Assembly (NCBI RefSeq): GCF_018863395.1
Contig: NZ_JAHKRR010000008.1
Location: 62,001 to 126,000, forward strand
Source: Sinomicrobium weinanense
GTDB lineage: Bacteria; Bacteroidota; Bacteroidia; Flavobacteriales; Flavobacteriaceae
Length of the DNA: 64,000 bases
Direction of reading: 5' to 3'
Shown here: one piece after another, positions 4,433-24,062 of the stretch
Position numbering within the stretch: the stretch's first letter is position 1
How the letters are laid out: every line of letters begins with the position of its first letter
Notes under the pieces: model-generated
Told to the model about the DNA's origin: nothing
Databases searched by the model: none
Seen by the model: only the letters and a program-made list of their open reading frames with translations
Translations under genes and position numbers: made by a program

Positions 4433-4768
4433 TTAACAGCATCCGTCGGATCCACATTCCTTTTTATTCTTTTGAGCGACCTCTCCCCTGTTCCATTCTT
4501 CGTCGGTGGCGCGGCGTACTTCATCAATGATCACTTCGCAATAAAATTCTCCTTCTACCCCGAAATAGCCTTGTTCTTCCGATATACAAAACCTTTTTAC
4601 GTTCCCGACTTTCAATCCTGTTAAATGGCCTTCCAGGGCAGGAAGTATATGACCCGTTCCGTGCAGATAGGTCACCGGTTTCCGCCCGGTTATATCTTCT
4701 ACGACCTCTCCTTTTCCATTCTTCAATCTGTACCTTAACGATACTACTGTTTTACTTGCTATTTCCAT
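4433..4768 (-). CDS. FKBP-type (SlyD-like) peptidyl-prolyl isomerase with a Cys-rich tail
   Basis: A 111-residue FKBP-fold protein, probably a cytoplasmic prolyl isomerase/chaperone since no signal peptide is visible. SlyD-like features are VVSLRYRLKNGKGEVVED at the start, the HGTGHILPALEGHLTGLKVG core (about residues 36-55) and the C-terminal strand EFYCEVIIDEVRRAT. The insert-in-flap domain of SlyD is much shortened here, which explains the small size. The tail ends CGSDGCC, like the metal-binding cysteines of SlyD tails but far shorter. It sits 31 bases downstream of the GH116-type gene in the same direction and is probably the last gene of the SusC-led transcript. Folding help for PUL proteins is possible but is inference. 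Confidence 0.8.
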   Translation of the reverse strand: MEIASKTVVSLRYRLKNGKGEVVEDITGRKPVTYLHGTGHILPALEGHLTGLKVGNVKRFCISEEQGYFGVEGEFYCEVIIDEVRRATDEEWNRGEVAQKNKKECGSDGCC

Positions 4769-4799
4769 TTTTGTTCCGGTTTATTTTCCATATTTCGCA

Positions 4800-7430
4800 C
4801 TAAACCTTCCATTCCACTTCCTCACCGGAAATGAGTACCTTTTCTACCTTTATTTCGCCCATGAATATTTTCAGGGCAGGTTTCCCGCCCTTTAGGCTCA
4901 CGGTACCAAAACCGTTTTCCGTAGAGAGAAAACCGCTAAAATCCCCTATTCTGGAATCTATGTGCAAAACCCTCTCAACAGCATCATACCGTACACCGGT
5001 AAGCCCCTGTAGCATGCCGTAGCTGGACAATGCCCGGGCATACCAGCTCCCGCATTCATACTCATTGAAGGGGTTCCTTGTGCGGCCGTCGTAGCGGTCA
5101 CGGCAGGCACGTACGATCTCCAGACCTTCTTCCACCTGCCCCATCAACATCAGGTGCGATGCAACCTGGTATTCGATCCCGGTCCAGACCTCATTGCTGT
5201 AAACAAACGGCAGGGAAAGTTTTCCTCCCTTGGGCCAGGAACAGAGGAGAAGCCCACCCTCATTCCCCAGGGCATAAGCAGGGCGTTGCGGGTTGACATG
5301 GTCCGTCAGGTCGTCTTTTAAGTTATATTTATGTACCGCCATTAAATGACTGCGAACCTTTTGGGCATTCAACGGGTCCTGCAGCCCGCACATACTGGCG
5401 ATCCAGCTACCCAGGACCCCGTCGGACAGGCACCCTTTGCCATACTGGTATTTGGGGCCTTCCTTTTTTAATACGGCCAGGGCCTCGTCGGAATATTGGG
5501 TGTGGAAGGACTGGGCTTTAACAGGATCGGGGGCATTCAGGCCCGTCCACCGGATATCCTGGATAAAATATTCCCCGTCGTACAAACGCTCTTCCATATA
5601 TTTCTTCCCTTTTGCGCAAAGCTCTTCGTAACGGGAAATATCCCTGTTCAGGAATTTCCCCATTTCGGAGAGTGCACTCAGAGCCCCGAGGTAAAAGCTG
5701 GTACACATCCCGTCCGGCCCCCAGAATTCAATGTCATAGGTATTGTGATGCGGTTCTTCCAGAACACCTTTCTCCCTCGGGTCCCACGTCCGGATACAGT
5801 AGTCCATACTGGTCTTTACCATGGGGTACATTTTTTCGAGCCACCGGTTGTTTCCGCTTATCCGCCATTCCCTGTATACTTTCATGATGCCCCCGAGCTG
5901 TCCGTCAGCAGCCGAGTGAAAGTTGTGCTTACCCGGCGAAACAGGCAGGTTGCTCCGGAATACCTGGTGCCCCCCCTCGTTTTGATTTTCACAAAACTCC
6001 GTATGCCGCAGGCCCCTTTCCATGGCTGGGAAGAGATGCGGAATGGCCTGGGCATAATTCCACACATGTGTACACGTCCCATGACAACACCCCCAGTCAT
6101 CGCTGCAACCCTCCCAGTTCCACATCCGCCCGTCATACTGCCTCATAACGGTCGGGGATTTCAGAATAGTGAGGTTGGCCGCAATGGCTTCCACGACTTC
6201 CGGCGGCAGCGTACTGGAATAAAAAGCATCTCTGAAAAGCCCTGATTTCTTTTGTAGATCCTTATAATTTTCCCTCCAGTATTCAACGACATCTTTTATA
6301 TTCCCAAACCGGCTGCTATACCAGGGTTTGTAAGTTATACCCGGATCTTTTCTGCTTTCTTCTTCCAGTCCCAGGGCCGTAGGAGAAAAGCAATCTCCTC
6401 CATCCTGGCCCGCCTCTCCGAAATGCAGGTCTGATTCGGGCACATACCATGCCATCATAATCCGGATAGTTCTTTTTTCTCCCGGTTCCAGTTCAAAAGG
6501 TACGAACAGGGAAGCTCCCGGAGCCCCTTCTTCAACAGGTTCATTGGCTTTTACCTTTCCTTCTTTTATAGTTTCCCAAACCATGGTGAGCGGATCGAAC
6601 CACCCGCCGCGGAACCAGCAGTGGTCTGTCACCGTACCGGGTTCATCCGTAAATACGGCAAAATTCGTTTCCAGATGCGGTTGTTCTCCGGTGCCTTTTT
6701 GCGTCAGGATAAATCCGCCGGGAGTACGTTCTACCGTTCCTTTCCGGTTGTGCTGAAGAACAAAATTCCTCGCATTATAGGAAAAGACCGCTTCAACAAC
6801 CCTTGCTCCCGTATTTTCGAATTCGTACTCCAGTGCGCCCACGGGCAGTCCCGAATTATCCTCATCTGCGGGGATAAACGGGCTCCATCCGGTGAGTGTA
6901 ACCCGGAGGGGCAGGTCTTCATCTTTAAGGCGAATGCTGGCAAAGGGAAAACGGGCTTTAAATGCCGCATGAGTAAACCGTGGCAGTCCGTAATTCGATC
7001 CGTGAGCCCCGTTTCCCGTACCCCTGGGGCCGAACATTTTCCATTTGGGCACCTGTCCTTCGAGGACTTTCGCCCCTTTATCCATTCCTTTTACAGTGAT
7101 GGCCGCAAACATGTTCGGTTCGTGATACAACTCCGGCCTGTGACGTATGGACATATGCGATATGGCCCCTGTCCCCTCCAGGGCAAACATGCCGGCCCCC
7201 ATTCCACCGATCGGAAAAGCAACCTTATCCAGGTAATCACCTTTATAGGTGCCATTGTATTTCCTGGCGGGTGCTTTCTTTTCATCGGAACCGGGGGGCG
7301 TAGTTCCCGTTTTTGCACCTTCATCACAACCGGTAACAAAGGGTACGGGCAACAGAGAAGCCCCCAGGCCGCCTATGCCTACCTGTTTTAAGAACAGGCG
7401 GCGATTATGTTCTTGTTTCTTTCCTTTCAT
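4800..7430 (-). CDS. GH116-type glycoside hydrolase (GBA2_N + DUF608), Tat lipoprotein
   Basis: An 876-residue enzyme of the GBA2/GH116 type. The N-terminus has a twin-arginine motif (NRRLFLKQVG) followed by a hydrophobic stretch and lipobox VTGC, so it is probably exported folded by Tat and lipid-anchored. Residues about 60-350 match the GBA2 N-terminal beta domain (GTYKGDYLDKVAFPIGGMGAGMF). Residues about 400-860 match the (alpha/alpha)6 DUF608 catalytic domain, with WNWEGCSDDWGCCHGTCTHV, HNTYDIEFWGPDG and NEVWTGIEYQ. The Asp in NTYD is the likely acid/base by analogy with GBA2; the nucleophile Glu was not placed. Known GH116 enzymes are beta-glucosidases, xylosidases or glucosylceramidases, and from memory a GH116 has been found in a D-arabinan locus. 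Beside two GH172 genes, action on D-arabinofuranosides is a reasonable guess. Confidence 0.85.
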   Translation of the reverse strand: MKGKKQEHNRRLFLKQVGIGGLGASLLPVPFVTGCDEGAKTGTTPPGSDEKKAPARKYNGTYKGDYLDKVAFPIGGMGAGMFALEGTGAISHMSIRHRPELYHEPNMFAAITVKGMDKGAKVLEGQVPKWKMFGPRGTGNGAHGSNYGLPRFTHAAFKARFPFASIRLKDEDLPLRVTLTGWSPFIPADEDNSGLPVGALEYEFENTGARVVEAVFSYNARNFVLQHNRKGTVERTPGGFILTQKGTGEQPHLETNFAVFTDEPGTVTDHCWFRGGWFDPLTMVWETIKEGKVKANEPVEEGAPGASLFVPFELEPGEKRTIRIMMAWYVPESDLHFGEAGQDGGDCFSPTALGLEEESRKDPGITYKPWYSSRFGNIKDVVEYWRENYKDLQKKSGLFRDAFYSSTLPPEVVEAIAANLTILKSPTVMRQYDGRMWNWEGCSDDWGCCHGTCTHVWNYAQAIPHLFPAMERGLRHTEFCENQNEGGHQVFRSNLPVSPGKHNFHSAADGQLGGIMKVYREWRISGNNRWLEKMYPMVKTSMDYCIRTWDPREKGVLEEPHHNTYDIEFWGPDGMCTSFYLGALSALSEMGKFLNRDISRYEELCAKGKKYMEERLYDGEYFIQDIRWTGLNAPDPVKAQSFHTQYSDEALAVLKKEGPKYQYGKGCLSDGVLGSWIASMCGLQDPLNAQKVRSHLMAVHKYNLKDDLTDHVNPQRPAYALGNEGGLLLCSWPKGGKLSLPFVYSNEVWTGIEYQVASHLMLMGQVEEGLEIVRACRDRYDGRTRNPFNEYECGSWYARALSSYGMLQGLTGVRYDAVERVLHIDSRIGDFSGFLSTENGFGTVSLKGGKPALKIFMGEIKVEKVLISGEEVEWKV

Positions 7431-7453
7431 CTGTTTTTTATCTCTTTTGGATA

Positions 7454-7855
7454 TTAAAGCTCTATGGTACTTCCCGGTGAATAAAACAGGCCGGATTGGT
7501 AGTCTTCCGACGGCTCAGCATGGGCCATGACCTTAACGGTAAACCTGTATGTCTTTGCAGGATCGTAAGGCGAATAGGTATAACTTACAGCATTATCTTC
7601 CAGGGTTATGGATCCGCCTTCCCTCCTTCCGTCAACAGAGACATGGATCAGGACAGACACGGGCTCAATGACATTTTCTGGATAAGCAGATGGAAGGTCC
7701 CAGGAGAGATTGACCTGGTCTCCTTCTGCATTGGCCGCCAGGTTAGAGACCGGATCGATCGGTTCTCCCGGTTTGGACGTGATTATATCGTCATCATAAC
7801 ATCCGGAGCAGAGCAAAAGGCTCCATATAAAAATATAAAATACATATTTTTTCAT
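7454..7855 (-). CDS. Small Fn3-like lipoprotein of the PUL (DUF4945-like)
   Basis: A 133-residue lipoprotein. I used the ATG at 7855 (MKKYVFYIFIWSLLLCSGC), which gives a clean signal peptide and leaves 23 bases after the SusD stop; the longer frame would overlap SusD. After the lipid Cys comes a single fibronectin-III-like domain (PVSNLAANAEGDQVNLSWDLP ... TYRFTVKVMA). Such short lipoproteins follow SusD in many Bacteroidota loci and are thought to sit at the cell surface as glycan-binding or structural partners; it resembles DUF4945, though I am not certain of that label. It lies between SusD and the GH116-type gene on the same strand. Confidence 0.75.
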   Translation of the reverse strand: MKKYVFYIFIWSLLLCSGCYDDDIITSKPGEPIDPVSNLAANAEGDQVNLSWDLPSAYPENVIEPVSVLIHVSVDGRREGGSITLEDNAVSYTYSPYDPAKTYRFTVKVMAHAEPSEDYQSGLFYSPGSTIEL

Positions 7856-7878
7856 CGTATGAACATTTAGGTAGTTAA

Positions 7879-9609
7879 TTAATAGCCGGGGTTCTGTTTG
7901 TAAACGCCCTTTGACCAATTCATCTGGGCCTGCGGGATAGGAAGGTACTCATCCCTTCCTTTTGTAAAATAGGCGACTTCCATCCAGGGATAGCGCTGGC
8001 TTTCCTTTTCGAAATACGCGTTCATCACCTCAGCGGCAATTCCCCAGCGTACCAGGTCGTAAAAACGGCGTCCTTCCATGGCCATTTCCAGCCGGTTTTC
8101 CCAAACCAGGGCTTTCCATGCGGTCTCGGCATTCCAGTTGATGTTTACCCCGTTGACATACGGTTCTACCTTATATTCGGCAGGGAAGGTTCCGTCAGGC
8201 AGTTTCAGTTTTTCCGTGCTGTTGGCCGCACGTTCCCTCAACTGGTTGATTACGGGGAGTGCTTCATCCTGCCTGCCCAGCCGTATCAATATTTCGGCTT
8301 TCCACAGCAATACCTCGGCATACCGCACTTCGATCTGGTTCTTGGAATTGAACATCCAGAACTCATCCCATAACCCGGGGCTGTCGGTCCGTACATTTTC
8401 TTTCAGGGAATTCATATAGCCGTAGATACCGGGGTCTCTCGAACCCGTGCTGTCGAATACGATCTCCTGGTACTTCCAGGGAAAATCGGGAATGGCCACG
8501 GTATGCCCGAGCCTGGGGTCGAAAGACCTGCTGAAATATTCATCGTAATTCCCTTTTAACTCCGATTCGTTGAACCCGTCGAACAGCGGCAATCCGTCAT
8601 CCCCGACCTGAAATGCATTGACGAGATTATAGCTCGCCTTGTGAAAATCGCAGCAACTGAAATACGGGTTCCACCAGGGGGCGGTGAGCCCGTTCCCTTC
8701 ATTCAGGTTGCCCCGGGGGGTCCCGTCGTCTATGGTAAATTGTAATTCCCAAAGGGATTCCGGGGAAGCATTGTCGTATTCCAGCATAAAGTTCTGGGCA
8801 AAATCGGAAGCCAGGCTAAAGGCTCCGCTGTCTATAATGTCATTGACCAGGACAAGGGCTTCTGACAGTTTTTCCGTATCGATCCCGGTAACCTGGTGGG
8901 TATTGTCCTGAGGATATGCCATCCAGAGCAACACCTGGGCTGCATATGCCTTGGCGGCATATTGATTGGCCCTGCCTACCTCATCCTGTTCCGGGGGAAG
9001 GTGCTCTGCGGCAAATTTGAAATCGTCCAGTATCTTTTGCCAGAGCGGCAGGTCGTTCTGCATGTCGTCAGGATGATTGGAAATAAGAGGAATATCATCG
9101 ACCGTTGCGGTTTCGTCAATGTAAGGGATCCATTTCCAGCGCCTTTTCATCTTAAAGTGTATCCATCCCCTGAGGAACCTCATCTCGGCAAGCCGTTCCT
9201 GTTTTACGGGGTAGTCTTCTTCGCTCACATTTTCAATGGCCCTTATCGCGGTATTTACCCTGGAAATGCCCTGATATGCCCGATACCAGGCATTATCGTT
9301 ATTCCCTATACTGGCATTGACCAGCGAAAAGACCTCCATCTGGTACCAGGGGGTCTGGTCATTCAGCCCGCCCCCGCCCTTGTAGGCATCGTCCGAGCGT
9401 AAACTGGCAATAAAAGGATTATAGGTCTCAAAAGCGTGGGATCTGGGCATAAAGGCATAAGCCGCAGTAACAAAACCATCCAATTGCTCCGGGTCCTGAA
9501 GCTGGTCTTCCGTAAGTACGCCTTTGGGGTTAACATCCAGCATGTCCTGGCAAGCGGTGATGGAAAATATCAAAAGGGCGGATATTATGCAGTTTTTAAA
9601 AGTTTTCAT
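7879..9609 (-). CDS. SusD/RagB-family outer-membrane glycan-binding lipoprotein
   Basis: A 576-residue SusD-family lipoprotein, the surface lid of the SusCD importer. The signal peptide ends at lipobox SITAC. It shows the typical N-terminus (LDVNPKGVLTEDQLQDPEQLDGFVTAAY), the TPR-like helical core (AEMRFLRGWIHFKMKRRWKWIPY) and the C-terminal RagB/SusD part (NRLEMAMEGRRFYDLVRWG ... YLPIPQAQMN). The stop is 23 bases before the Fn3-like lipoprotein and the start is 18 bases after the SusC stop, the usual susCD order. It should bind oligosaccharides released from the locus A target glycan. No anomalies seen. Confidence 0.95.
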   Translation of the reverse strand: MKTFKNCIISALLIFSITACQDMLDVNPKGVLTEDQLQDPEQLDGFVTAAYAFMPRSHAFETYNPFIASLRSDDAYKGGGGLNDQTPWYQMEVFSLVNASIGNNDNAWYRAYQGISRVNTAIRAIENVSEEDYPVKQERLAEMRFLRGWIHFKMKRRWKWIPYIDETATVDDIPLISNHPDDMQNDLPLWQKILDDFKFAAEHLPPEQDEVGRANQYAAKAYAAQVLLWMAYPQDNTHQVTGIDTEKLSEALVLVNDIIDSGAFSLASDFAQNFMLEYDNASPESLWELQFTIDDGTPRGNLNEGNGLTAPWWNPYFSCCDFHKASYNLVNAFQVGDDGLPLFDGFNESELKGNYDEYFSRSFDPRLGHTVAIPDFPWKYQEIVFDSTGSRDPGIYGYMNSLKENVRTDSPGLWDEFWMFNSKNQIEVRYAEVLLWKAEILIRLGRQDEALPVINQLRERAANSTEKLKLPDGTFPAEYKVEPYVNGVNINWNAETAWKALVWENRLEMAMEGRRFYDLVRWGIAAEVMNAYFEKESQRYPWMEVAYFTKGRDEYLPIPQAQMNWSKGVYKQNPGY

Positions 9610-9627
9610 CTGAACAGAATTTAGTGG

Positions 9628-12600
9628 TTAAAGAGATACATTAACACCAAACAGGAAGACCTGGGGCCTCACATAGGCATCAGCGGCCGGGCTTTCCGGA
9701 TCGATCCCGGTATAGGCATCGTCGCCCCACCATTTCCTGATGTTTACAATATTCTGGGCACTCACCGAGAGGCGGGCCTTTTGTACACCTATTTTAGACA
9801 AAACACTTTCGGGAATATTGTATCCTATCTCAACCTGTCTCAGTTTCAGGTATGAGCCGGATTCCAGGAAATAGGTCGATGCCCTCAGCTCGTCATTCGG
9901 GTTGATCAGGGACAGGGCCGGGATATCGGAATCGGGATTGGCGGGCGACCATGCATTTAAAATACGCGTAGGGTGATTGACACCCTTCTGAACGTGCACA
10001 TTCCAGAAATCGCTGTATGTTTTCCAGTCGTTCCAGACCGTATTCCCCACTACACCCTGCCAGAACATGGAGAAATCGAAATTCTTGTATTCGGCTTCAA
10101 AATTCAATCCGTATGAAAAATCCGGATCGCTTACCCCGAGCCATGTGCGGTCGTGCTCCCAGGTAATACGGCCATCATTATTCAGGTCCTTGTACCTTAT
10201 CCTTCCCAGGCCTTTACCCGGCTGTTCCGGGGAATTGTCTACCTCTTCCTGGGTCCTGAACAGGCCATCGGCAACAAATCCGTAATGCGAATTGCGGGGC
10301 CTGCCGAGAATATCGTCATCCAGTCCGTTACCCCCGAAGGTGTATTTTACCGATTCGGGCAGATCGTCTATCCGGTTCCTGTACGTGCTGATATTCCCTG
10401 TTATCGAATAAGAGAAATCCCCTCCTGTTTTGCCAAAGTAGGAAATGACAAATTCCACCCCTGTGTTGGTCATGTTCGCGGCATTTATCCACCGCTGCCC
10501 CCCTTCTCCGATGGCAGCAATGTACGGGGGCTCATATAACATTCCGTCGGTATATTTATGGAAGTAGTCTACGGAACCTGTCAGGGCACCGTCAAACAAT
10601 CCGAAATCCAGGCCTATATTGGTTTGGGTGGTCGTTTCCCATTTCAGGTCGGAGTTCCCGGTGTGTATTTTGCGGTATCCGTAGGCAAGATTGCCTGTTT
10701 CGTTCCCTGCAAGCCCGTAACTCGTGCCGTGAAGCCCGGAATGATAAGCGGCATCGTAAATATCGACCAGTGCATTTGTTGGAATATTGGAATTTCCGTT
10801 CATCCCCCAGCTCGCCCTTAACTTCAGATCGGAGATCAGGGTGCTTTCAGCTAAAAATTTCTCCTGGCTCAGTCTCCATCCCCCGGACACTGCAGGGAAA
10901 ACCCCAAACTGGTTTCTTTCCCCGAATTTGGAAGAACCGTCGTACCTCACCGTGGCCGACAACAAATACTTGTCGTCAAACACATAATTAAATTTGGAGA
11001 AGTAGGAGAGTAATGACCATTCATCTCCTCCCCCATAAACTTCCTGAGTTCCGGAAGCTGCATTAAGATATGCATAGTCATAGTCTTCAATCTCAATATC
11101 CCTGCGATACCCTCTTAAATCATCCAGTTTAAACTTCACGGTTTCCATCCCTGCAAGGAAATCGAGCTGATGTTTTTCCAGGTCCAAACGATAATTTATG
11201 GTATTGGTCCAGGTTTTGGTAACATTCTGGTTCCAACCGGTATTTACCCCGTTATTGATGTCCTCCCTGCCGCCGCCTTCTTTCCAGGTAAAATCAATAT
11301 GCCTGAAATTCCCGGCATTATATTCCAGTCCGAAGGATGTTCTCAGGCTCAGGTTATCTATCAGGTCCAGTTCGGCATAGACATTTCCGATAAGGGTCAT
11401 GTAATGGTTATCGTTATCTTTGTTCATGGTCAATTGCCTTATCGGGTTCCAGTAATCATCCATGCCCAGGGCTACGGCAGTTCCTCCCCAGCCACCGTCG
11501 AGCGTATGTACCGGGATAATTGCGGGCATACGGAGAAGCTCGTTGGTCCGGCGCTGATTGTTGAGGTTCATATAGGCCAGGGATATATTTTCCCCTACCC
11601 TCAACCGGTCCTTAAACAGGGTGTATTCTGAATTGAATCGTGCGGAGTACCTTCGGAAAAAGGAATGGATCTGCGTTCCCTGATTTTCGTAAAAGTTCAG
11701 GGAAAACAGTGACCTGCTCTTTTCACTACCACTGGATATGGTGAGGCTGTGGTTGTTTTGTATTCCCAGTCGTGTGCCCTCTCCGAACCAGTCGGTATCT
11801 GCCGACGGCATGGTCTGTTCTTCATTGAGCCATTCTATCGGGGATACATTATCCAGGACAGGGGCCCCGTTATCGTTGGTGTGCCAGTCGTATTGATATA
11901 TCTGGGTCATGGCATTGGGGTCGCTTCCATCGTTTACGGCGGCCTGCCAGAATGCTTCTCCATATTGCTGCGTATTGAGCATGTCTATTGTGTTCATAAA
12001 ACTCGAAATGCCCACAGACCCCCTGTAATCGATCTTTGTCTCTCCCATCTTTCCTTTCCTGGTTTCGATAAGTATTACCCCACTCGCCGCCCTTGATCCG
12101 TAAATACTCGCGGAAGCCGCATCTTTCAGCACCTGTATGGAGGCAATATCGTTCGGGCTGATATCATTGAGGTTGACATTGGTGGGCAAACCGTCTATTA
12201 CGATCAGCGGAGGGGCGGACCTGAAGGAGGTCAGTCCGCGTATCTGGACAGCGACATCCCCGGCAGGGCTACCGTTTCCCGTGACCTGTACACCGGCCAG
12301 CCTTCCCTGAAGGCCCTGCATAACGTTGGAATAGATGTTCTTTTCGACCTCTTCCGAAGAAACCGTAGCCACAGCCCCGGTGAGATCGGCTTTCTTTTGT
12401 TTCATGTAGCCCGTTACGACAACCTCGTCCAGCCGGGCCAGATCCTCCTCAAGGGTTACATCAACATTGGTGTTTTCCCCTACCCGGACCTCCCTGGTCT
12501 TAAACCCCAGGAAAGAAAAGACCAGAATGTCATTACTACCGGCTTCGATAGTATATTTTCCGTCAAAATCGGTAGCTGTCCCCCTCCCGGTACCTTTTAC

Positions 12601-12825: not shown

Positions 12826-12902
12826 TATAGTTTTTAATTGGTTAATAAATTGATTGGTTCTTAAAGGTGTTTTTTTATCAAATAGTGTTTTTCAGGTTTT
12901 AA

Positions 12903-12916
12903 GTTAAACGATTAAA
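12903..12916. promoter_or_regulatory. LacI-type operator site 4 (susC proximal)
   Basis: GTTAAACGATTAAA. It fits the window-derived consensus TTTAAWCGWTTAAA with the central CG expected for LacI-family operators. It lies 78 bases ahead of the SusC start. Confidence 0.65.
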
Positions 12917-12989
12917 TAAATTGATATTATACACTCTGAATTATGTATTCAGAAGGACTAAATTACATTTTTTATGAAGATATCCAAAA

Positions 12990-13003
12990 CTTAATCGTTT
13001 AAA
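12990..13003. promoter_or_regulatory. LacI-type operator site 5 (susC distal)
   Basis: CTTAATCGTTTAAA, the same palindrome family. Its centre is 87 bases from that of the other site in this gap, about eight helical turns, which would allow looping between the two sites. Confidence 0.65.
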
Positions 13004-15497: not shown

Positions 15498-17171
15498 TCA
15501 GGTCTTTTGCTCTATGAAACTACAAAATTGCCCGTAGCTTTCATATCTGATATTGTACATCCTGTGTTTTTCTTTATCGGGGAAAAATTCCTTTTCGAAA
15601 CCTTTCCCCATATTTTCCATGGCATCCTCCACCTTGGGGTATATGCCTGCCACCGTAGCCGCAAACATCGAAGCTCCCAGCGCACAGGTCTGTTCAGATC
15701 TGTGGACCTTTATCGGCATTCCCGTAACATCGGCCATCATCTGCTCGATAAAGGGGGATTTCCGGGCTACTCCTCCCACTCCGATCAGTCCCTTTACCGG
15801 AATACCTTCTTCGATAAAACGTTCTATAATTCTCCTGGAACCAAAGCAGGTAGCTTCTGCCAGGCTTCTGTATACCCGGGGTGCGGTACTTCCCAAAGTA
15901 AGGTTTTGCAAAGCCCCTTTCAGGAGCTGGTCGGCATCGGGGGTTCTCCGGCCATTCCACCAGTCTACGGCGATCTCCGTGTTTTCGTCTATTGATAATC
16001 CGGCGGCCTCTTTATTGAGTTGCAAAAGTATTCTGCCCCTGATCTCGTGCACCAGCTTTTCCGAGGTTTCCCTGTCTATTACTTCTGATGCTGACAGCAG
16101 GTTTTCCAACGGCCAGGAAAGCAGGTTACGGAACCAGGCATAGATATCGCCAAAAGCAGACTGTCCGGCTTCCAGGCCCAGCATACCGGGGATAATGGAT
16201 CCCTGCACTTGTCCGCAAATACCTTTGACCAGGATATTGTCCATGTCTTTTGCAGGAACTACAACCATGTCACAGGTCGAGGTTCCCATGACCTTGCTCA
16301 CATAATACGGTTCGATCTGCCCACCGACCGCCCCCATATGGGCATCGAGGGCACCGACACCGATCAGTACCTCTGTGGATAAACCGAGTTTCCCTGCCCA
16401 TTCGGGGCTCAGTTTACCTGCCGTATTATCAGAGGCATAAGTCCTGGCGGGCAGGCTGCGCCTGATAGCGCCCAGGGCAGGGTCTAAAGCCGAGAAAAAT
16501 TCTTCAGCCGGATATCCTCCGTAGTCTTCGGCCCACAATGCTTTGTGCCCGGCAGCACAAACACTCCGTTTCATTTCCGATACGTCTTTTCCCCCGGTCA
16601 GCAAAAAAGGGATCCAGTCGCAATGCTCTACCCAGGAATGGCATGCTTTCTTCACTTTTTCGTCCTTTCTCAGGACATACATCAATTTTGCCCAAAACCA
16701 TTCGGAGGAATAAATGCCGCCGACATATTTTAAAAAATCAATGTCAAAACTTTCGGCAATCCTGTTTATTGCTTCGGCTTCTTTTACGGCAGAATGGTCT
16801 TTCCACAAAAAGAACATGGCATTGGGGTTGTCGCGAAACTCCAGGTGCAGGGCCAGGGGGGTCCCCCGCCTGTCCACAGCAACGGGAGTAGAGCCCGTAG
16901 TGTCTATGGAAATGGCCCGGATATTGTTCCTGACTTCGGGTTCGGTTTCCCGGAGCATTGCAGGAATAACGTTTTCCAACCCTTCTATATGATCCAGGGG
17001 GTGCTGTCTGAACCGGTTTTCCGACGCATCGCAGTACATCCCTTCCTTCCACCGGGGATAAAAAAATTCCGACCCCCCTTTTTCCTCCCCGGAACGGGCA
17101 TCCACAAGAACGGAACGGACGGAGTTTGTACCGAAATCTATTCCTATGACATAATCTTTTCTGTTATTCAT
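15498..17171 (-). CDS. AraB-type ribulokinase (FGGY kinase)
   Basis: A 557-residue cytoplasmic FGGY carbohydrate kinase close to AraB. It shows the ATPase phosphate-1 motif VIGIDFGTNSVRSVLVD at the start, the AraB-specific stretches DTTGSTPVAVD, DNPNAMFFLWKDH and GGIYSSEWFWAK, and the C-terminal GTSTCDMVVV, EAGQSAFGDIYAWF and GGVARKSPFIEQMM. AraB enzymes phosphorylate both L- and D-ribulose. With an FucI-type isomerase two genes away and no AraA or AraD in view, the likely reaction is D-ribulose + ATP -> D-ribulose-5-phosphate, which enters the pentose phosphate pathway. FucK-type activity on fuculose is the alternative; the sequence is clearly AraB-like rather than FucK-like. Confidence 0.9.
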   Translation of the reverse strand: MNNRKDYVIGIDFGTNSVRSVLVDARSGEEKGGSEFFYPRWKEGMYCDASENRFRQHPLDHIEGLENVIPAMLRETEPEVRNNIRAISIDTTGSTPVAVDRRGTPLALHLEFRDNPNAMFFLWKDHSAVKEAEAINRIAESFDIDFLKYVGGIYSSEWFWAKLMYVLRKDEKVKKACHSWVEHCDWIPFLLTGGKDVSEMKRSVCAAGHKALWAEDYGGYPAEEFFSALDPALGAIRRSLPARTYASDNTAGKLSPEWAGKLGLSTEVLIGVGALDAHMGAVGGQIEPYYVSKVMGTSTCDMVVVPAKDMDNILVKGICGQVQGSIIPGMLGLEAGQSAFGDIYAWFRNLLSWPLENLLSASEVIDRETSEKLVHEIRGRILLQLNKEAAGLSIDENTEIAVDWWNGRRTPDADQLLKGALQNLTLGSTAPRVYRSLAEATCFGSRRIIERFIEEGIPVKGLIGVGGVARKSPFIEQMMADVTGMPIKVHRSEQTCALGASMFAATVAGIYPKVEDAMENMGKGFEKEFFPDKEKHRMYNIRYESYGQFCSFIEQKT

Positions 17172-17298
17172 GAAAAATAAATCTTTATATAAACCGGATT
17201 TACGACTTCAAAACTTAAGACATAAAATTAATCAGTGCTCAAACTCCATTCACCTTTTAAAGTCCTATGTCTTATGTTCTGCGGTCTTACATCATACT
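17172..17298. other. Gap with a 9-base inverted repeat between kinase and transporter
   Basis: TAAGACATA at 17216-17224 and TATGTCTTA at 17266-17274 form an inverted repeat with a 41-base loop, followed by a degenerate copy of the second arm (GTCTTACATC). It could be a weak RNA stem inside the transcript that tunes kinase expression relative to the transporter, or a decayed repeat. No gene. Confidence 0.3.
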
Positions 17299-18609
17299 TC
17301 ATAAACTTTCTGCCGCCAACGGATTCACCGTCTGTCTGTTGGGCTGCATTTTTCGCTGCAGGACCGCATAAACCGCCACTACGCCAAAACAGAGCAGGGG
17401 AATGTAAAACGACAACTTAATACTTTGGGTGGTATCGGAAACCTGTCCCTGTAAGGCAGTCAGGACAGCTCCTCCCAGTATGGCCATGATCAACCCTGAT
17501 CCCCCGATCTTGGTATCCTGGCCCAGCCCTCTCATTCCCAAACCGTATATGGTGGGGAACATCAGCGACATAAACCCGGAAATAGCTACCAGGGCGATGA
17601 CTCCCCCATATCCGCTGCCATAGATCACCAGCAGTGTACATACTCCGCCTCCAATGGCACTTAACATCAATAAATTCCTGGGGCTAAAGAACTTCATCAG
17701 CCCTGTGAATATAAAGCGGGACACCGAAAACAGGATCAGGGAAGCTAGGTAATAGGTTGCGGCATTGTCTTCACTGAGGTTCAACTCCTGCATCACATAC
17801 CTGATGGTATATGACCACACGCCGATCTGGGCTCCCATATAAAAAAACTGGGCGATCACGGACCAGCAGTAATTGGGGTTCTTTGCCAATCGCCTGAGAC
17901 TGGGTATCAAATGTACTTTGCTCCCTTCATCGGAGGCTTTCGGCATTTTTGTGTATTTTACGAGCAGCCATATCAATATTAAAAAACAGGCAACCCCCAC
18001 ATAAGTCCCCATCACGGAGGTAAGTTCTTCGGATTGGATCACCTGTAATTCTTCGGCGGTCATCCCCGCCCGCTCCCCGGCATCGGACAAATTCAGGTGT
18101 GAGAGGATAAAGACCTTGCTCAACACCACCCCGGAAATCGACCCTATGGGATTAAAGGATTGTGCCCAGTTCAGCCTCCGGGTCCCGGTCTCTTCGGGGC
18201 CCATGGCAATGATATAGGGGTTGGCCGCGGTTTCCAGGATGGACAGCCCTCCTGCCAGGATAAATAATGCAGCCAGAAAGTGGCCGTATACCATGGTAAT
18301 GCTCGCAGGGTAAAAAAGCAGTGCCCCGATGATAAAAAAACCCAGGCCGACCAGCACGCCGGTTTTATACGTAAATCTTTTTATAAGGATCGCGGCCGGA
18401 AGGGCCAGCAAAAAATAAGACCCGTAGAATGCGAGCTGTATCCATGACGTCTGAAAGTCCGACATACTCATAATCCGTTTAAAGGCGGCCAGCAGGGTAT
18501 CTGTCATATTATTGGCCAGCCCCCACAGGAAAAAAAGGCTGGTAACCAGTATAAACGGCCAGGTATTTCCCGGTCTTATCAGGGAAACTTTTTGTGCTTT
18601 ACGTTTCAT
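17299..18609 (-). CDS. FucP-type major facilitator sugar:H+ symporter
   Basis: A 436-residue inner-membrane MFS transporter of the FHS/FucP family, with about 12 helices. Family features are FLWGLANNMTDTLLAAFKR in the first helix and loop (FucP-like W-G-x-x-x-N-D/N), GSYFLLALPAAILIKRFTYKTG, AGGLSILETAANPYI (the FucP ETAANPY motif) and LNWAQSFNPIGSI. E. coli FucP takes up L-fucose and also D-arabinose, which have the same ring stereochemistry. It lies in one transcript with the isomerase and kinase, 61 bases from the isomerase stop. Inferred role: uptake of the D-arabinose freed in the periplasm by the GH172 enzymes. Confidence 0.9.
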   Translation of the reverse strand: MKRKAQKVSLIRPGNTWPFILVTSLFFLWGLANNMTDTLLAAFKRIMSMSDFQTSWIQLAFYGSYFLLALPAAILIKRFTYKTGVLVGLGFFIIGALLFYPASITMVYGHFLAALFILAGGLSILETAANPYIIAMGPEETGTRRLNWAQSFNPIGSISGVVLSKVFILSHLNLSDAGERAGMTAEELQVIQSEELTSVMGTYVGVACFLILIWLLVKYTKMPKASDEGSKVHLIPSLRRLAKNPNYCWSVIAQFFYMGAQIGVWSYTIRYVMQELNLSEDNAATYYLASLILFSVSRFIFTGLMKFFSPRNLLMLSAIGGGVCTLLVIYGSGYGGVIALVAISGFMSLMFPTIYGLGMRGLGQDTKIGGSGLIMAILGGAVLTALQGQVSDTTQSIKLSFYIPLLCFGVVAVYAVLQRKMQPNRQTVNPLAAESL

Positions 18610-18670
18610 AGAGATCGGTTTTGACTGTGGTGTATGGATTAAACCTGCATATCATCGTTCAGCAATTACA

Positions 18671-20443
18671 TTATTTATAAAGGGGGCCATAGGTGTTGCA
18701 GGCACGGAAGTCGCTTCCCTCCCTGTCCATTCCGAAGGAGTTCCATGTACTGGGCCTGAAGATCCTTCCGGGATCGACATTGTGCATAGATACGGGTATC
18801 CTCAATACGGCGGCCAGTGCGATCAGCTCCTGACCGATATGCCCGCAGGAAATGGCCCCGTGATTGGACCCCCAGTTATTCATCACGGAATACACATCTG
18901 CAAAGGCGTTATCTTCTGTTAACCGCGGAACAAACCAGGTAGTGGGCCAGGTGCGGTCTGTTCTTTCGTCCAGGATCTTATGGACCTTCTGCGGCAGGTC
19001 GATCGTCCATCCTTCGGCGATCTGAAGTGTGGGGCCGATGCCTTTGACCAGGTTAACCCTGCACATGGTTACCTGCATCCCTCCTTTGGTGAGGAAACCG
19101 GATGAATATCCGCCACCGCGGAAATAGCCCAGGCTGGCGGGATACCATGTTGTAGCGTCCAGGCATTCCTGCACTTCTTCTTCCGAAATTTCCCAATAGG
19201 GTTTCATGGCCGGCTGGCCATCCTTTACCTGGCGCCCCGTCCCGTCCAAAGTTGCCGAACCGGAGTTTATAAGGTGTATAAAGCCGTTCTCCGCCATGCC
19301 TTCGGGTTTCCACCCGCTTACTCTTTCCACAGCTTCGGGGCTCCAATAGGTCCTGACATCGGCAAAGATCTGGGCCCTGTTGGTCAACAGGTAATTGAAC
19401 AGCATGGACACCCCGTTCAATGCATCATTTTCGGTGGCCACCATATAGGGGGGCCTTTTCCCGTTCCAGTCGAAAGAGGAATTGAGAATGGCCTCGGCAA
19501 AATCGCCGTTGGGCAGGAAATCCGTCCATTGCCGCTGCCCTTGAAACCCGGAGACTATGGCTTCATGGCCCATGGATTCTTCCCCGAATCCCATTTCCCG
19601 GAGTTTCGGGTTACCTTCCATAAGATCGCGTATGATCAGGGTCATTTTCACTACAAATTCCCAATCCTTGTCCTTTTGTTCCCTGGAACGTTGTTTTTCT
19701 TCCTTGTTAAAGTCCTCTCCTTCTGCACAGTTTTTTTTCGTCCAGGCCAGGGCCTTTTCGTATTCTTCATGGTCATATATCCCTTGTTCTATCCTTCTCA
19801 GGACTTCGCTGGAATCGACATATTCGTTCCGCATCCCCAGAAAATCCTGAAAGAAATCCGGATCGACCGCAGAACCGGCGATCCCCATGGAAACACTGCC
19901 TATGGCCAGGTATGATTTTCCTTTCATCAGTGCCACAGCCATTCCTGCCCTTGCAAAGCACAGCAGTTTTTCCTTTACATCTTTTGCGATCCCGTCGTCA
20001 TTCAGATCCTGTACATCCCGGCCGTAAATACCAAAAGCCGGCAATCCCTTTTGGTTGTGGGCTGCCAGGGTGGCAGCCAGGTAAACCCCTCCGGGCCTTT
20101 CCGTACCGTTAAACCCCCAGATGGCCTTCGGGATGTGCGGATCAAAATCCATGGTTTCCGTACCATAGGCCCAACAGGGAGTCACGGAAAGGGAAACCCC
20201 GACATTTTCCGCCTTGAATTTTTTATCACAGTCCACAGCTTCTTTTATGCCCCCGATACAGGAATCGGCTATTACACATTCTACTGGTTTTCCGTCGGGA
20301 TATTTCAACTCGGTCTTAAACAATTTGGCAACGGTTCTGGCCATGGCCATGGTCTTTTCTTCGAGCGATTCCCGGATCCCTCCAAGCCTTCCGTCAATGA
20401 CGGGCCTGATCCCGATCCTGGGATATGAGTCAATTTTTTGCAT
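18671..20443 (-). CDS. fucI: L-fucose/D-arabinose isomerase (FucI type)
   Basis: A 590-residue cytoplasmic ketol isomerase matching FucI over its full length. It has the start [22 protein letters not shown], the metal site around TEND (E338) and the following Asp D362 (E. coli FucI uses E337 and D361), and the C-terminal [12 protein letters not shown] with the third metal ligand His. FucI converts L-fucose to L-fuculose and D-arabinose to D-ribulose with Mn2+. The neighbouring AraB-type kinase and the lack of any fuculose-phosphate aldolase argue that D-arabinose is the real substrate. It lies 21 bases from the next upstream gene and so is co-transcribed. Confidence 0.93.
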
Positions 20444-20464
20444 ATTTTTTACTTCTTCAGGTTT

Positions 20465-21733
20465 TTATTTCGTTTTTTTCGTGTTGAAGGTGTTTTTTAC
20501 AGTTTCCAGTTCTACGCCTAAAACAGCCCGGGCAATTTTGTTCAGCCGGGCTTCCTCCCCGGTCAGGTGAAAAACACTGTGCCGGTGTGTCAATTTTTCC
20601 TGCGGTTGCAGAAAAGCGGCAGGCGATACGCTTTCTATTTCGTAGAAAGGCCCCATCTGGGAACCGTCTTCCAAGGGCCCGTCGTTATAGGCGTTGATGG
20701 CATCTCCTGAGAGGGGATCCTTGTCCGGCGTCCACTCCTGGTTCAAATAGACAGCATTATTATCGACTTCGAAAAGCGTGATCGTAAGCACCTTGTTCAA
20801 CTGGTCGTAACTCCCCGCTATTGTTTTTGCCCGGTTTGGGGGAATACCCAGTTTTCCCCTCGATTTACCATCGGCCCTAAAGAACAAATGGCCATTGGCA
20901 TAACTGATCCTGTCCTTCGGGATCTCCCCGAAATAATCGGTGGTCGCCACTTTGCCCCTACTTCGGCTATGCTCAGCAACCGCGGTATCTTCCCGGTATG
21001 GAATAATAATGACCGTTTCGTCGGACGGGGTGAACATATCCAGTATCCAGATACAAGGCGCTCCGGTTTCTTTTGTCCATGCCCTATCGCCGGTATTGAT
21101 AATGGCATTATCGGTCGTAAACCCGACGCTCTGTATATTCCCCAGGTTTACATTGAGCAGTTTTTCCATCTTCTCTTTACCGAGGATCCGGACCTCCCGC
21201 TCAGCCTTTATCCGAAGGTTTGTTCCCGCGTAATTGACGATGGACATCTCCTTCTTCATCCTTACTCCGGAACTGTTGCTGTTCACTACTTCCCAGGGCT
21301 CTGTATCTATTGCCGGCGGTGTTTTCCAATGGTCAAAGACCATGGGGGAACCGGGGTTAAAAAAGAGGGAGAATTTACTCCCTTCGGGCCCCAGCCAAAA
21401 CCGGTTTTCACCTCCGTAAGCGTTCATATGCGGGTCCTCCTCACCCTCAAAGGCCTCATAATTGACCCATCCGAAACTTTTACCGCCGGGGCCGGCCGCA
21501 GATGATGTAAAGACTTTTCCCTGGTATTTGGGAGAAACGATGACCTGGCTGCTGTCCTGCTTTAACACGATCAGTCCTTTGTCTTTTTCTTTAAGAAAAT
21601 TCAGGTCATAGCCGTAGCTCCCCTGCTCATATGTCTGTGCTTTCATTTCTTTTTTATCCTTTCCGGTCCTATGGATACAGGCTATCATCATACAACAGGC
21701 CATCACCGTAGTAATCATAGCTGAATATTTCAT
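20465..21733 (-). CDS. Lipoprotein of the DUF6786 type, function unknown
   Basis: A 422-residue protein with a lipoprotein signal (MMIAC). It looks all-beta and starts with a module reminiscent of sugar-mutarotase folds: QVIVSPKYQGKVFTSSAAG, then FGWVNYEAFE, GGENRFWLGPEG and FSLFFNPG. I believe this is the family called DUF6786 in Bacteroidota, but that is from memory. A similar fold occurs in galactose mutarotases and some glycan-active enzymes; H/E residues such as those in EDPHMNAYGGENRFW might form a sugar site. It lies in the middle of the GH172-led transcript, between the second GH172 and the FucI gene. A periplasmic aldose 1-epimerase or a new hydrolase/binding protein for D-arabinofuranosides would fit. 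Confidence 0.6.
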   Translation of the reverse strand: MKYSAMITTVMACCMMIACIHRTGKDKKEMKAQTYEQGSYGYDLNFLKEKDKGLIVLKQDSSQVIVSPKYQGKVFTSSAAGPGGKSFGWVNYEAFEGEEDPHMNAYGGENRFWLGPEGSKFSLFFNPGSPMVFDHWKTPPAIDTEPWEVVNSNSSGVRMKKEMSIVNYAGTNLRIKAEREVRILGKEKMEKLLNVNLGNIQSVGFTTDNAIINTGDRAWTKETGAPCIWILDMFTPSDETVIIIPYREDTAVAEHSRSRGKVATTDYFGEIPKDRISYANGHLFFRADGKSRGKLGIPPNRAKTIAGSYDQLNKVLTITLFEVDNNAVYLNQEWTPDKDPLSGDAINAYNDGPLEDGSQMGPFYEIESVSPAAFLQPQEKLTHRHSVFHLTGEEARLNKIARAVLGVELETVKNTFNTKKTK

Positions 21734-21751
21734 CCGTCTATTTTTTATTTG

Positions 21752-22900
21752 TTAATTGACTTCCAGGTCATTTTTTGAAGGAAGGGGCGGAAAGGAGGCA
21801 TGGGGTTCCAGTTGATACCAGTATACCACGGAACTTATATCAGACTTTTGCTGCAGGTAGCGATGGTCACTCCTCCAGCCGAGGTCCTGAATGGTAATCT
21901 TCAATTCCTTATCGAAACGGATGGGGTCCTGTATATGCCACCGGTACAGGCCGAACCGTTGTTGTGAATTATACAGTCCGTCCGGGCGGATGATCTGGTG
22001 CAGTCCCGCATAAGCCGTTGAGTAGCGTTCGTATTGGTGCGTTTTCTTGTTCTCGAAATTATAGGAGCCCAGAAAATAGTCTTCGGTCCCCGTTCCTGCT
22101 ATGGTCGGGTATTTCCTGTCCCCGTCCATATAGAATTTGATCTCGCCTTCGCCCCACCATCCTCGGTTGTTTACCTGCCACGCCATGTAGGTGCCCACAT
22201 AATGGCCTTGTCCTTTTATACCGTCTACCAGGGTATGGATGGCTCCTTTGGTGGGATTACTCCTCCGGAATTGCGCGTGAAAGTACGCGGCGTCCCCGGG
22301 AACTTCTGTCAGGGAGTAATCGATCTGGTAATAGAGGTACATCTCCTCTGCACCTATGTTTTCCATAGTGATCTTACACTTCTTTCTGAAAGGCATCGGC
22401 CAGAAGGAGTTAAAGGCACTGCCGGGGTTCACGGTTACGGGCAACGAATTGAGCGGGGCATATTCTCCCCATCCCATTCCGAAAAAATCTCCTACGGGAA
22501 CTTCTACGGAAGGTTCTTTTTCATCGTCCCAGTACATCCGGAGAATGGAAAACCGCCAATTGCCTGTTGGGGTCATCCATATGTGCTGAATAACACCTTC
22601 ATCGGTGATCTCGGCCAGGGTAAAAGTCTCGCCGGGTTCTATTTTAACCGAAGGGCTTACTTTCCAGCCTTTGCCCAGTTCCCGGGCTGCATGGCTTCCT
22701 GTTCCGTTTCCCGGTTCTGCCATCCCTCCCTTGCCGGGTTCACCTGTAAAATTTTCGGGACTTATGGACCTTGTCTCTGCTTTGGAAACACGAAAAATAT
22801 TTCCGAGGCTCATATCCAGGCCATTAAAATCTTTTTCCTGAGCGTGGGAAAACAAAATACAGATTGTAGAAAACACAAAAAATAAGCAATACTTTTTCAT
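21752..22900 (-). CDS. GH172 (DUF2961) glycoside hydrolase, second copy
   Basis: A 382-residue secreted paralogue of the GH172 gene at 14242-15396 (signal peptide ending FSHAQ). Catalytic-type motifs are WWGEGEIKF (E251) and GTGTEDYFLG (E273), spaced 22 residues. Other family marks are GVIQHIWMTPTG, LRMYWDDEKEPSVEVPVGDFFG and FWPMPFRKKCKITM. It differs from the first copy by an extra Gly/Pro-rich stretch at about residues 53-75, so the two probably cleave different linkages or chain lengths. It is the first gene of a long minus-strand transcript that also carries the DUF6786-type lipoprotein, isomerase, importer, kinase, first GH172 and the unrecognised protein, and it is preceded by two operators around a -7 box. 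Confidence 0.9.
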   Translation of the reverse strand: MKKYCLFFVFSTICILFSHAQEKDFNGLDMSLGNIFRVSKAETRSISPENFTGEPGKGGMAEPGNGTGSHAARELGKGWKVSPSVKIEPGETFTLAEITDEGVIQHIWMTPTGNWRFSILRMYWDDEKEPSVEVPVGDFFGMGWGEYAPLNSLPVTVNPGSAFNSFWPMPFRKKCKITMENIGAEEMYLYYQIDYSLTEVPGDAAYFHAQFRRSNPTKGAIHTLVDGIKGQGHYVGTYMAWQVNNRGWWGEGEIKFYMDGDRKYPTIAGTGTEDYFLGSYNFENKKTHQYERYSTAYAGLHQIIRPDGLYNSQQRFGLYRWHIQDPIRFDKELKITIQDLGWRSDHRYLQQKSDISSVVYWYQLEPHASFPPLPSKNDLEVN

Positions 22901-22910
22901 GGAAGATGAA

Positions 22911-22924
22911 TTTAATCGATTAAA
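22911..22924. promoter_or_regulatory. LacI-type operator site 1 (GH172 promoter, near the transcription start)
   Basis: TTTAATCGATTAAA, a perfect 14-base palindrome with central CG, 10 bases ahead of the GH172 start codon and just downstream of the -7 box. Confidence 0.75.
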
Positions 22925-22932
22925 CTAAAAGC

Positions 22933-22940
22933 CAAATATA
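22933..22940 (-). promoter_or_regulatory. Promoter -7 box of the GH172-led transcript
   Basis: Read on the minus strand this is TATATTTG, an exact match to TAnnTTTG. It lies between operators 1 and 2, so bound repressor would block RNA polymerase. No clear -33 TTG is visible. Confidence 0.6.
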
Positions 22941-22942
22941 CA

Positions 22943-22956
22943 TTTAAACGATTAAA
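22943..22956. promoter_or_regulatory. LacI-type operator site 2 (GH172 promoter, upstream)
   Basis: TTTAAACGATTAAA, one mismatch from a perfect palindrome. Its centre is 32 bases from that of site 1, three helical turns, so both lie on the same face of the DNA. Confidence 0.75.
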
Positions 22957-23042
22957 CTAAAAAACGAAAAGTTCAGTTTTTTACATTTTAACATATAAAT
23001 GTCACGAAATTTCAGGATAAAATTAAATAATCGGCAATATTT

Positions 23043-24062
23043 CTACCCTCTTTTACAGGATTTGCGAATTATGAGCTCGGCCTCCAGGCAGACCTGTTCT
23101 TTCTTTAATGCAGGATCGGAGATCTGGTCTGTCAGGATTTTAACCGCATTTTCTCCAAAACCTTTAAGCGGTTGTTTGACATAGGTCAGGGGGCAATAAT
23201 AAAAATCAAAGGCTTCTCCTTCGTCAAAGCTGATGATGGCGATATCTTCCGGTATCTTATAATTGAGTTCATCGATATACTTCAGGCCATACACAGCCAG
23301 GGTATTGGTTGCAAATAAAATGGCATCCACCTTGTTTTTGCTCAGTAACATATTGTCTATGGCCAGTTTAACTTCCTGTTTTATATTGGAAAACCTGATC
23401 TCATTGACCCAGTCTTCCTTAATTTCCAGGTTACCGTCTTCCATGGCATTTTTATACCCTCTTATACGTTCTCTCATATGATGGAGCGAACTGGCATAAG
23501 CGATGATCCCGATCCGGGAATTGCCTGTCTGGATCAGCCTCCTGGTGGCCTTGTAAGCAGCCTTGTAATTATTGATGACAACGTAATTGGATTCTATTTC
23601 CGGGAAATAGCGGTCGATCAGGACAAAGGGGATATTATTGGTTTTTAAATACTCGATCTGTTTTTCGGAACCCTCTGCCGCGGCTATTATAAAACCGTCC
23701 ACCTGCCGGTTGCTCAGAAACTGGACCAGGTCCCAGGACTTATCTGCCTTTTCGTCACAGCTTCCGAAAAGCACCGTGTAATCGAGTTTCTTGGCCTCAT
23801 CCTCAACAATACGCGCGATATGAGCGAAAAACGGGTTGGAAATATCCGCGACGATCAATCCTATGGTAAAGGTCTTGCCGCTTTTCAGGCTTTTTGCGAT
23901 CTGGTTGGGCCGGTAATTCAGCTCCCTGGCCGCTTTTTTCACCTTTTCCGCCACCTTGAGGCTTACCCGGCTCTCTTCGCCCTTTGACAATACATAGGAT
24001 ACCGTGGCCGTGGAGACCCCTACTTTTTTCGCGATATCTTTCAGGGATACTTTTTTCTTCAT
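23043..24062 (-). CDS. LacI-family transcriptional repressor of locus A
   Basis: A 339-residue LacI/GalR-type regulator. It has an N-terminal helix-turn-helix (VSLKDIAKKVGVSTATVSYVL, residues 4-24), the hinge helix (NYRPNQIAKSLKSGK) and a periplasmic-binding-like effector domain (about 62-339; TIGLIVADISNPFFAHIA, FVLIDRYFP). It follows the GH172-led transcript in the same direction but has its own upstream operator. The five matching palindromes at its own gene, the GH172 promoter and the SusC promoter make it the obvious regulator of locus A. The inducer is probably D-arabinose, a D-arabinofuranosyl oligosaccharide or a phosphorylated intermediate. Confidence 0.92.
   Translation of the reverse strand: MKKKVSLKDIAKKVGVSTATVSYVLSKGEESRVSLKVAEKVKKAARELNYRPNQIAKSLKSGKTFTIGLIVADISNPFFAHIARIVEDEAKKLDYTVLFGSCDEKADKSWDLVQFLSNRQVDGFIIAAAEGSEKQIEYLKTNNIPFVLIDRYFPEIESNYVVINNYKAAYKATRRLIQTGNSRIGIIAYASSLHHMRERIRGYKNAMEDGNLEIKEDWVNEIRFSNIKQEVKLAIDNMLLSKNKVDAILFATNTLAVYGLKYIDELNYKIPEDIAIISFDEGEAFDFYYCPLTYVKQPLKGFGENAVKILTDQISDPALKKEQVCLEAELIIRKSCKRG

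Follow-up and report, generated by a model that had tools for sequence, protein, structure and literature searches.

We describe a locus of Sinomicrobium weinanense (Flavobacteriaceae) that lies within a 64,000-nucleotide stretch of contig NZ_JAHKRR010000008.1 (positions 62,001 to 126,000; hereafter the window). Thirteen genes, all on the minus strand, form a single locus between window positions 4433 and 24062; from the promoter side their order is lacI, GH172b, DUF6786, fucI, fucP, AraB-type kinase, GH172a, unk377, susC, susD, DUF4945 lipoprotein, GH116 and FKBP. The comparisons set out below indicate that this is very probably a polysaccharide utilization locus for a D-arabinofuranose (D-Araf) glycan. 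An earlier note on this DNA had proposed a complete locus for such a glycan; every gene that it named was recovered in its place on the minus strand by family profile matches, and its list is extended here by unk377, the DUF6786 protein, the DUF4945 lipoprotein and the FKBP gene, the last of which ends at position 4433, where the earlier note's stretch begins.

The regulator gene (23043..24062; Pfam LacI and Peripla_BP_3) opens the locus, with its start codon one nucleotide past the end of an operator. It is followed by GH172b (21752..22900), a DUF2961 protein predicted to be a periplasmic exo-alpha-D-arabinofuranosidase, and by the DUF6786 protein (20465..21733), a predicted D-arabinose mutarotase with a lipobox; here and throughout, export signals and lipoboxes were judged by eye on the translations. 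Next come a FucI-type isomerase, predicted to convert D-arabinose to D-ribulose (18671..20443; TIGR01089, 1048 bits, cut-off 850), a FucP-type proton symporter, the predicted D-arabinose importer (17299..18609; TIGR00885, 456 bits, cut-off 280), and an AraB-type FGGY kinase predicted to form D-ribulose-5-phosphate from D-ribulose (15498..17171; NCBIfam ribulokinase NF003154, 676 bits, cut-off 428). GH172a (14242..15396), also a DUF2961 protein, is a predicted periplasmic exo-alpha-D-arabinofuranosidase of the DgGH172c/4KQ7 type, and unk377 (13122..14255) is a predicted secreted protein of 377 residues for which a mutarotase-type supersandwich fold is predicted. The uptake genes encode a SusC-type TonB-dependent importer (9628..12825; TIGR04056, 855 bits) and a SusD-type surface lipoprotein (7879..9609; SusD_RagB), which are respectively 78% and 80% identical to their counterparts in Cytophagaceae SAT51, a metagenome-assembled genome. 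A DUF4945 lipoprotein (7454..7858; Pfam DUF4945, 101 bits; lipobox) is a possible surface glycan-binding protein, with similar proteins in the loci of SAT51 (56%), Pseudobacter (29%) and B. muris (33%). GH116 (4800..7430; Pfam GH116 domains), a predicted exo-beta-D-arabinofuranosidase, and a small FKBP-type prolyl isomerase (4433..4768; FKBP_C, 23 bits, cut-off 21) complete the set.

The closest solved relatives of the glycosidases are enzymes of D-arabinan breakdown. GH172b scores 419 bits against the exo-alpha-D-arabinofuranosidase ExoMA1 (8IC8) and 140 against the next structure, the fructofuranoside enzyme alphaFFase1, while GH116 scores 362 bits against the exo-beta-D-arabinofuranosidase ExoMA2 (8IC6), with the next structure at 50. 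The accessible text of PMC10509167 assigns catalytic or specificity roles to Glu431, Asp557, Arg483 and His446 in ExoMA2 and to Asn253 in ExoMA1. The ExoMA2 residues correspond to E440, D566, R492 and H455 of the window GH116 (the ExoMA2 PDB chain runs four residues ahead of the published numbering, as judged from motifs), and all four are kept in 10 of 10 aligned rows, which represent 9 distinct genes and include some fragments. In GH172b, E251, E273 and N281 align with the catalytic and specificity residues, and a hand count on the alignment puts N281 at the place of ExoMA1 Asn253; both glutamates are invariant in 90 aligned rows, in which the Asn253 position is occupied by Asn (76 rows) or Asp (14 rows). 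GH172a is closest to 4KQ7 (246 bits), followed by alphaFFase1 (7V1V; 225 bits) and DgGH172c (8AH3; 220 bits), and the residues in question are E248, E269 and C277. Two glutamates of DgGH172c were mutated in the work reported in PMC10115798, as far as its accessible text goes, and they stand 21 residues apart, the spacing of E248 and E269. By sequence and residues, the locus holds features that mark a D-arabinan locus: a GH172 of the ExoMA1/DgGH172 type, a GH116 with the ExoMA2 residues, and genes for a predicted D-arabinose isomerase and D-ribulose kinase.

The FucI protein is the sole Fucose_iso_C match in the genome by profile search. The best solved relative of the kinase is the ribulokinase 3QDK; against the L-ribulokinase model TIGR01234 it scores 549 bits, under the cut-off of 583 that the genome's own AraB passes at 623, and it is 49.6% identical to this AraB, which belongs to a separate araB-araD-araA operon on contig C1. 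No fucA, fucK, araA or araD lies within the locus, in agreement with the earlier note. FucK was looked for in the locus only and not in the rest of the genome; the kinase there is of the ribulokinase type and reaches 34 bits against the FucK model, whose cut-off is 471. Genome-wide there are three Aldolase_II matches, none of the FucA type: AraD, an aldolase/adducin-type fusion, and a rhamnulose-1-phosphate aldolase/dehydrogenase beside L-rhamnose isomerase. The fusion, on contig C4 (L019, 186-2021), is 611 residues long and carries its class II aldolase/adducin domain at the C-terminus. The AraB of E. coli accepts D-ribulose, and its FucP accepts D-arabinose. A FucI paired with a kinase that accepts D-ribulose would lead to D-ribulose-5-phosphate.

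Five perfect TTAAWCGWTTAA sites stand upstream of three genes of the locus: TTAATCGATTAA before lacI (24064..24075), a distal TTAAACGATTAA (22944..22955) and a proximal TTAATCGATTAA (22912..22923) before GH172b, and a distal TTAATCGTTTAA (12991..13002) and a proximal TTAAACGATTAA (12904..12915) before susC. The sequence thus bears out the proposal that the genes lie under one LacI regulator, and we infer that the LacI protein of the locus binds these sites. The exact motif occurs six times in the 5.36-Mb genome, five of them in the locus, and its reversed control not at all; a genome-wide search for a wider regulon found the exact motif elsewhere only between a ubiE-like and an aspC-like gene (names assigned by eye). 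With up to one mismatch allowed, the window has 5 matches, against a mean of 1.1 and a maximum of 4 in 100 dinucleotide shuffles, and the genome has 65 against 57 for the reversed control; these genome-wide counts are near chance, and only the exact motif is therefore informative. A fuculose aldolase gene elsewhere under the same operator, which the earlier note had singled out as telling against its reading, was sought in the genome and not found. Between the two GH172b operators lies a -7-like element, TATATTTG, which we take to be of the Bacteroidota type. A similar element stands between the two GH172b operators of SAT51 and just after the GH172b operator of Muricauda, and none was seen near the operators of several other relatives; operator distances in relatives were taken from rows with a start codon at the coordinate given.

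The wider distribution of these genes provides a further line of evidence. Of 395 genomes of the class, 17 have a GH172b-type match, a count that takes in the window's own genome and weak matches; the 13 other genomes of the family have none. We compared the window proteins with 93 GH172b loci, comprising the best 80 of at least 586 related stretches and 13 further loci; many of these loci end at contig ends, and the counts are lower bounds. The isomerase gene fucI was found in 13 of them, the kinase in 11 and both in 10, while DUF6786 was found in 29, of which 21 also carry fucI, the kinase or a KdaD-type dehydratase gene. The KdaD-type gene is present in 8 loci, never together with fucI. In five loci of Chitinophaga and Pseudobacter (L075, L079-L082) the lacI-GH172b-DUF6786 core is kept, but fucI and the kinase are replaced by oxidative genes of the D-arabinose type, namely an L-fucose dehydrogenase-family SDR, a COG2721-type (galactarate/altronate) dehydratase, an FAH-family protein and an aldehyde dehydrogenase; four of the five also show FucP and unk377. 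The gene families were scanned on L080, and the other four loci were assigned by their similarity to it. The L080 FAH (KdaD-type) protein has 2-keto-3-deoxy-D-arabinonate dehydratase (2Q18) as its best solved relative (190 bits against 65); the aldehyde dehydrogenase has 3V4C and 1EYY, not a proven alpha-ketoglutaric semialdehyde dehydrogenase, as its nearest matches, and the SDR is nearest to 4GKB, which bears another name. According to the accessible text of PMC6336799, a COG2721 enzyme acts as D-arabinonate dehydratase, and Routes II and III are both open to D-arabinose. The Chitinophaga-type relatives carry genes as in the non-phosphorylative Route II of that paper, with a COG2721-type dehydratase, a KDP-dehydratase-type gene and a dehydrogenase beside GH172b, where the window has an isomerase and a kinase instead; Route II uses an aldo/keto reductase as its D-arabinose dehydrogenase, whereas these relatives have a short-chain dehydrogenase. 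The joining of two unrelated routes to one glycosidase core points to D-arabinose as their shared product, and this swap between isomerase/kinase and oxidative genes is a pointer obtained by genome comparison alone.

The operator follows the same pattern. Its exact form was found in 19 of the 36 GH172b loci that have an accessory gene and in none of the 57 without (Fisher p 3e-10; the loci are not independent), and in 15 of the 22 loci with fucI, the kinase or a KdaD-type gene, against 4 of the 71 others. In Muricauda (L167) operator sites lie upstream of a GH172a-unk377 pair and of a DUF4185 gene. The exact operator offers a direct handle for listing D-arabinose regulons in other genomes.

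From gene content, closest characterised relatives, active-site residues, operator distribution and comparative context we infer a model in which the enzyme activities, cell locations, repressor binding, inducer and natural glycan are all predictions. The SusCD pair, with the DUF4945 lipoprotein, would take up D-Araf oligosaccharides. In the periplasm both GH172 proteins would remove alpha-D-Araf and GH116 would remove beta-D-Araf end residues, and the DUF6786 protein would probably interconvert the ring forms of the released D-arabinose. FucP would then import D-arabinose, FucI would convert it to D-ribulose, and the AraB-type kinase would phosphorylate this to D-ribulose-5-phosphate for the pentose phosphate pathway. 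Until D-arabinose or one of its derivatives appears, LacI would keep the three transcription units repressed by way of the TTAAWCGWTTAA sites.

Our confidence in the identity of the natural glycan is low. The GH116 gene predicts a glycan with beta-D-Araf ends besides alpha-D-Araf, and mycobacterial arabinogalactan and lipoarabinomannan would fit. The earlier note considered an undescribed D-Araf glycan; one marine D-Araf polymer has been described, the capsule of Devosia submarina, with alternating 2- and 5-linked alpha-D-Araf; the repeat given in the accessible text of PMC8707391 is without beta-D-Araf. D-arabinan is treated mainly as mycobacterial in the accessible portions of PMC10115798 and PMC10509167, and a literature search that combined D-arabinofuranose with marine, Bacteroidota and polysaccharide utilization loci found nothing. 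If our reading is true, this dedicated D-Araf locus, lacking the known endo-enzyme, would show that D-Araf glycans also sustain Bacteroidota living outside the gut.

The nearest counterpart of the locus is that of SAT51 (L062, L166), presumably, from its name, a Tara Oceans bin from the South Atlantic. Its genes and their order are those of the window locus, the twelve proteins compared being 54-84% identical, and the 1+2+2 operator layout is shared; no GH183 match was found in its genome. Unlike the window, it has one more GH172-type gene behind the kinase and a CobW-type gene ahead of the FKBP gene. Among described systems, polysaccharide utilization locus 42 (PUL42) of Dysgonomonas gadei likewise combines GH172 exo-alpha-D-arabinofuranosidases with a fucose isomerase, which during growth on D-arabinan was the most abundant carbohydrate-active enzyme (accessible text of PMC10115798), and has a GH116 gene in the cluster (PMC10509167, likewise). 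PUL42, compared by its published description, also has GH183 endo-D-arabinanases (PMC10115798, same text), for which the window's genome has no match above cut-off, and in a Dysgonomonas relative that was sampled (L125, L170) the SusCD pair is a different one (27% identity) and unk377 is missing. The D-arabinan locus of Microbacterium arabinogalactanolyticum, as far as the accessible text of PMC10509167 describes it, shares with the window the GH172 ExoMA1, the GH116 ExoMA2 and a putative isomerase and kinase; it differs in coming from a Gram-positive organism, in having an ABC transporter in place of SusCD, exo-enzymes without signal sequence and four GH183 genes. The window locus is a variant of the D-arabinan loci known from D. 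gadei and Microbacterium, and differs in having no detectable GH183 and in having unk377.

Several observations weigh against assigning the locus to D-Araf. The specificity Asn of GH172b is present in 32 of 36 rows from loci with accessory genes and in 43 of 53 from loci without, the rest having Asp, and is hence no marker of the former. None of the accessory genes scored was seen in 57 of the 93 GH172b loci, so GH172b alone neither defines a D-arabinose locus nor proves a D-arabinose diet. Of five such loci that were inspected, three contain GH43-type genes (L064, L067 and L103, that of L064 being named by eye), and two of these, L064 and L067, contain galactokinase-like genes as well, likewise named by eye; in L077 and L089 no glycosidase besides GH172b was seen by eye in the stretch examined. 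The exact operator is missing from 7 of the 22 loci with a catabolic gene (L056, L058, L059, L075, L109, L110, L126), and the kinases of some relatives, at 47% identity to the window kinase, are no closer to it than the genome's own AraB. In five loci (L050, L095, L098, L106, L118) fucI lies beside a fuconolactonase and a diketo-hydrolase, a set that could serve L-fucose or D-arabinose; an aldose dehydrogenase of the D-arabinose pathway and known L-fucose dehydrogenases take both sugars, according to the accessible text of PMC6336799. Finally, a genome-wide search for GH183 gave nothing above cut-off, and a single DUF4185 match of 37.9 bits falls in a separate SusCD locus. Seven relatives' genomes have GH183-type (DUF4185) matches of 297-317 bits. 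Without a GH183 match above cut-off in the window's genome, the description of the locus as complete is not borne out.

The gap is easily accommodated if the locus deals with no more than the D-Araf ends, or short oligosaccharides, of a mixed glycan, and other loci or organisms cut the backbone; this is a narrower form of the D-Araf reading and compatible with it, and we give it somewhat less than an even chance. The lack of a GH183 match above cut-off in the window's genome, and of any in SAT51, would then be natural, and unk377 would be an accessory protein; the predicted glycosidases of the locus bear export or lipoprotein signals, none being plainly surface-exposed, and pili and lipoglycans are known to be decorated with D-Araf (accessible text of PMC10115798). 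Against such a limited role, the presence of a SusCD pair in the locus, under two operators, suggests a dedicated import substrate, and the exact operator recurs in the genome at just one place, the ubiE-like/aspC-like site.

Far less probable is a locus for L-fucose or an L-fucose glycan, in which FucP would import L-fucose, FucI would convert it to L-fuculose and the kinase would phosphorylate the latter. FucI and FucP do match L-fucose equivalogs, and the same block is paired with L-fucose-type oxidative genes in some relatives, but the locus proteins scanned gave no match to any fucosidase family, and we reject L-fucose use on the missing aldolase, the ribulokinase type of the kinase, with its mere 34 bits to the L-fuculokinase model, and the D-Araf enzymes to which GH172b and GH116 are related. 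The earlier note's preference for D-arabinofuranose over L-fucose is upheld on these grounds, together with the active-site residues, the single FucI and the relatives in which an oxidative route of the D-arabinose type replaces fucI and the kinase. A locus for an alpha-D-fructofuranose glycan or difructose anhydride, with FucI and the kinase present by chance, is slightly less credible still and was rejected: GH172a is about as close to alphaFFase1 of Bifidobacterium as to DgGH172c, but it has Cys277, shared by DgGH172c and 4KQ7, where alphaFFase1 has Gly299 (by eye), GH172b stands much nearer to ExoMA1, the match of GH116 is to a beta-D-Araf enzyme, and fructose requires neither FucI nor a ribulokinase. 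Use of L-arabinose was rejected on the genome's own araB-araD-araA operon elsewhere.

Within the D-Araf reading, unk377 and the DUF6786 protein are concrete candidates for new D-arabinose-active enzymes. The unk377 protein has no Pfam or NCBIfam match (E 0.001), only chance-level matches to solved structures in single-sequence and profile searches, and no Foldseek match with E <0.001. Its predicted model (pLDDT 86.8) has the supersandwich fold common to several glycosidase domains and mutarotases. It is rare, but 10 of 26 relatives' genomes have it. Close homologues (at least 39% identity) occur in seven genomes without a strong GH183 match (the window's own, G395, G398-G401 and G406), three of which (G398, G399, G401) have weak DUF4185 matches that barely pass the cut-off (39.9 to 51.8 bits), while distant homologues (28-33%) are found in four genomes (G396, G407-G409), all with a strong GH183 match. 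If the genomes were independent, this anti-correlation of seven against four would arise once in 330 cases, a figure uncorrected for kinship. In Muricauda (G396) unk377 comes after GH172a, downstream of two operators. The protein probably acts on the same glycan as the rest of the locus; that it founds a new mutarotase-fold family of carbohydrate-active enzymes, replacing GH183 as the chain-cutting D-arabinan enzyme, seems to us unlikely, at perhaps one chance in five. The DUF6786 protein has a supersandwich fold in its predicted model, as in the aldose 1-epimerase superfamily, and a search of the literature for DUF6786 found nothing.

Further observations concern neighbouring and related genes. 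The DUF4185 protein of Muricauda (L167, 9079-11388) carries ricin-type lectin domains and a secretion-system C-terminal sorting domain, and is likely a surface or secreted D-arabinan enzyme. A protein of 697 residues without a Pfam match, found in the Dysgonomonas relative (L170, 8098-10191), recurs in D-arabinose-type loci, with similar-looking proteins, by eye, in L136 (13160-15253) and L110. The FKBP gene is the last of the window locus, and its SAT51 counterpart is preceded by a gene for a CobW-type metallochaperone (L166, 10688-12094); these genes possibly serve the metal supply of a metal-dependent enzyme such as FucI. Elsewhere in the window, a second SusCD locus (25452-51876) contains two GH78-type rhamnosidase genes, three sulfatases, GH127, GH5 and a beta-helix protein, as well as a PfkB kinase, a permease and a nucleoside-hydrolase-type gene near a GntR-type regulator; this mix of genes suggests a sulfated rhamnose-rich glycan as its substrate. 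At 57126-63987 a GDSL lipase gene stands among four sulfatase genes.

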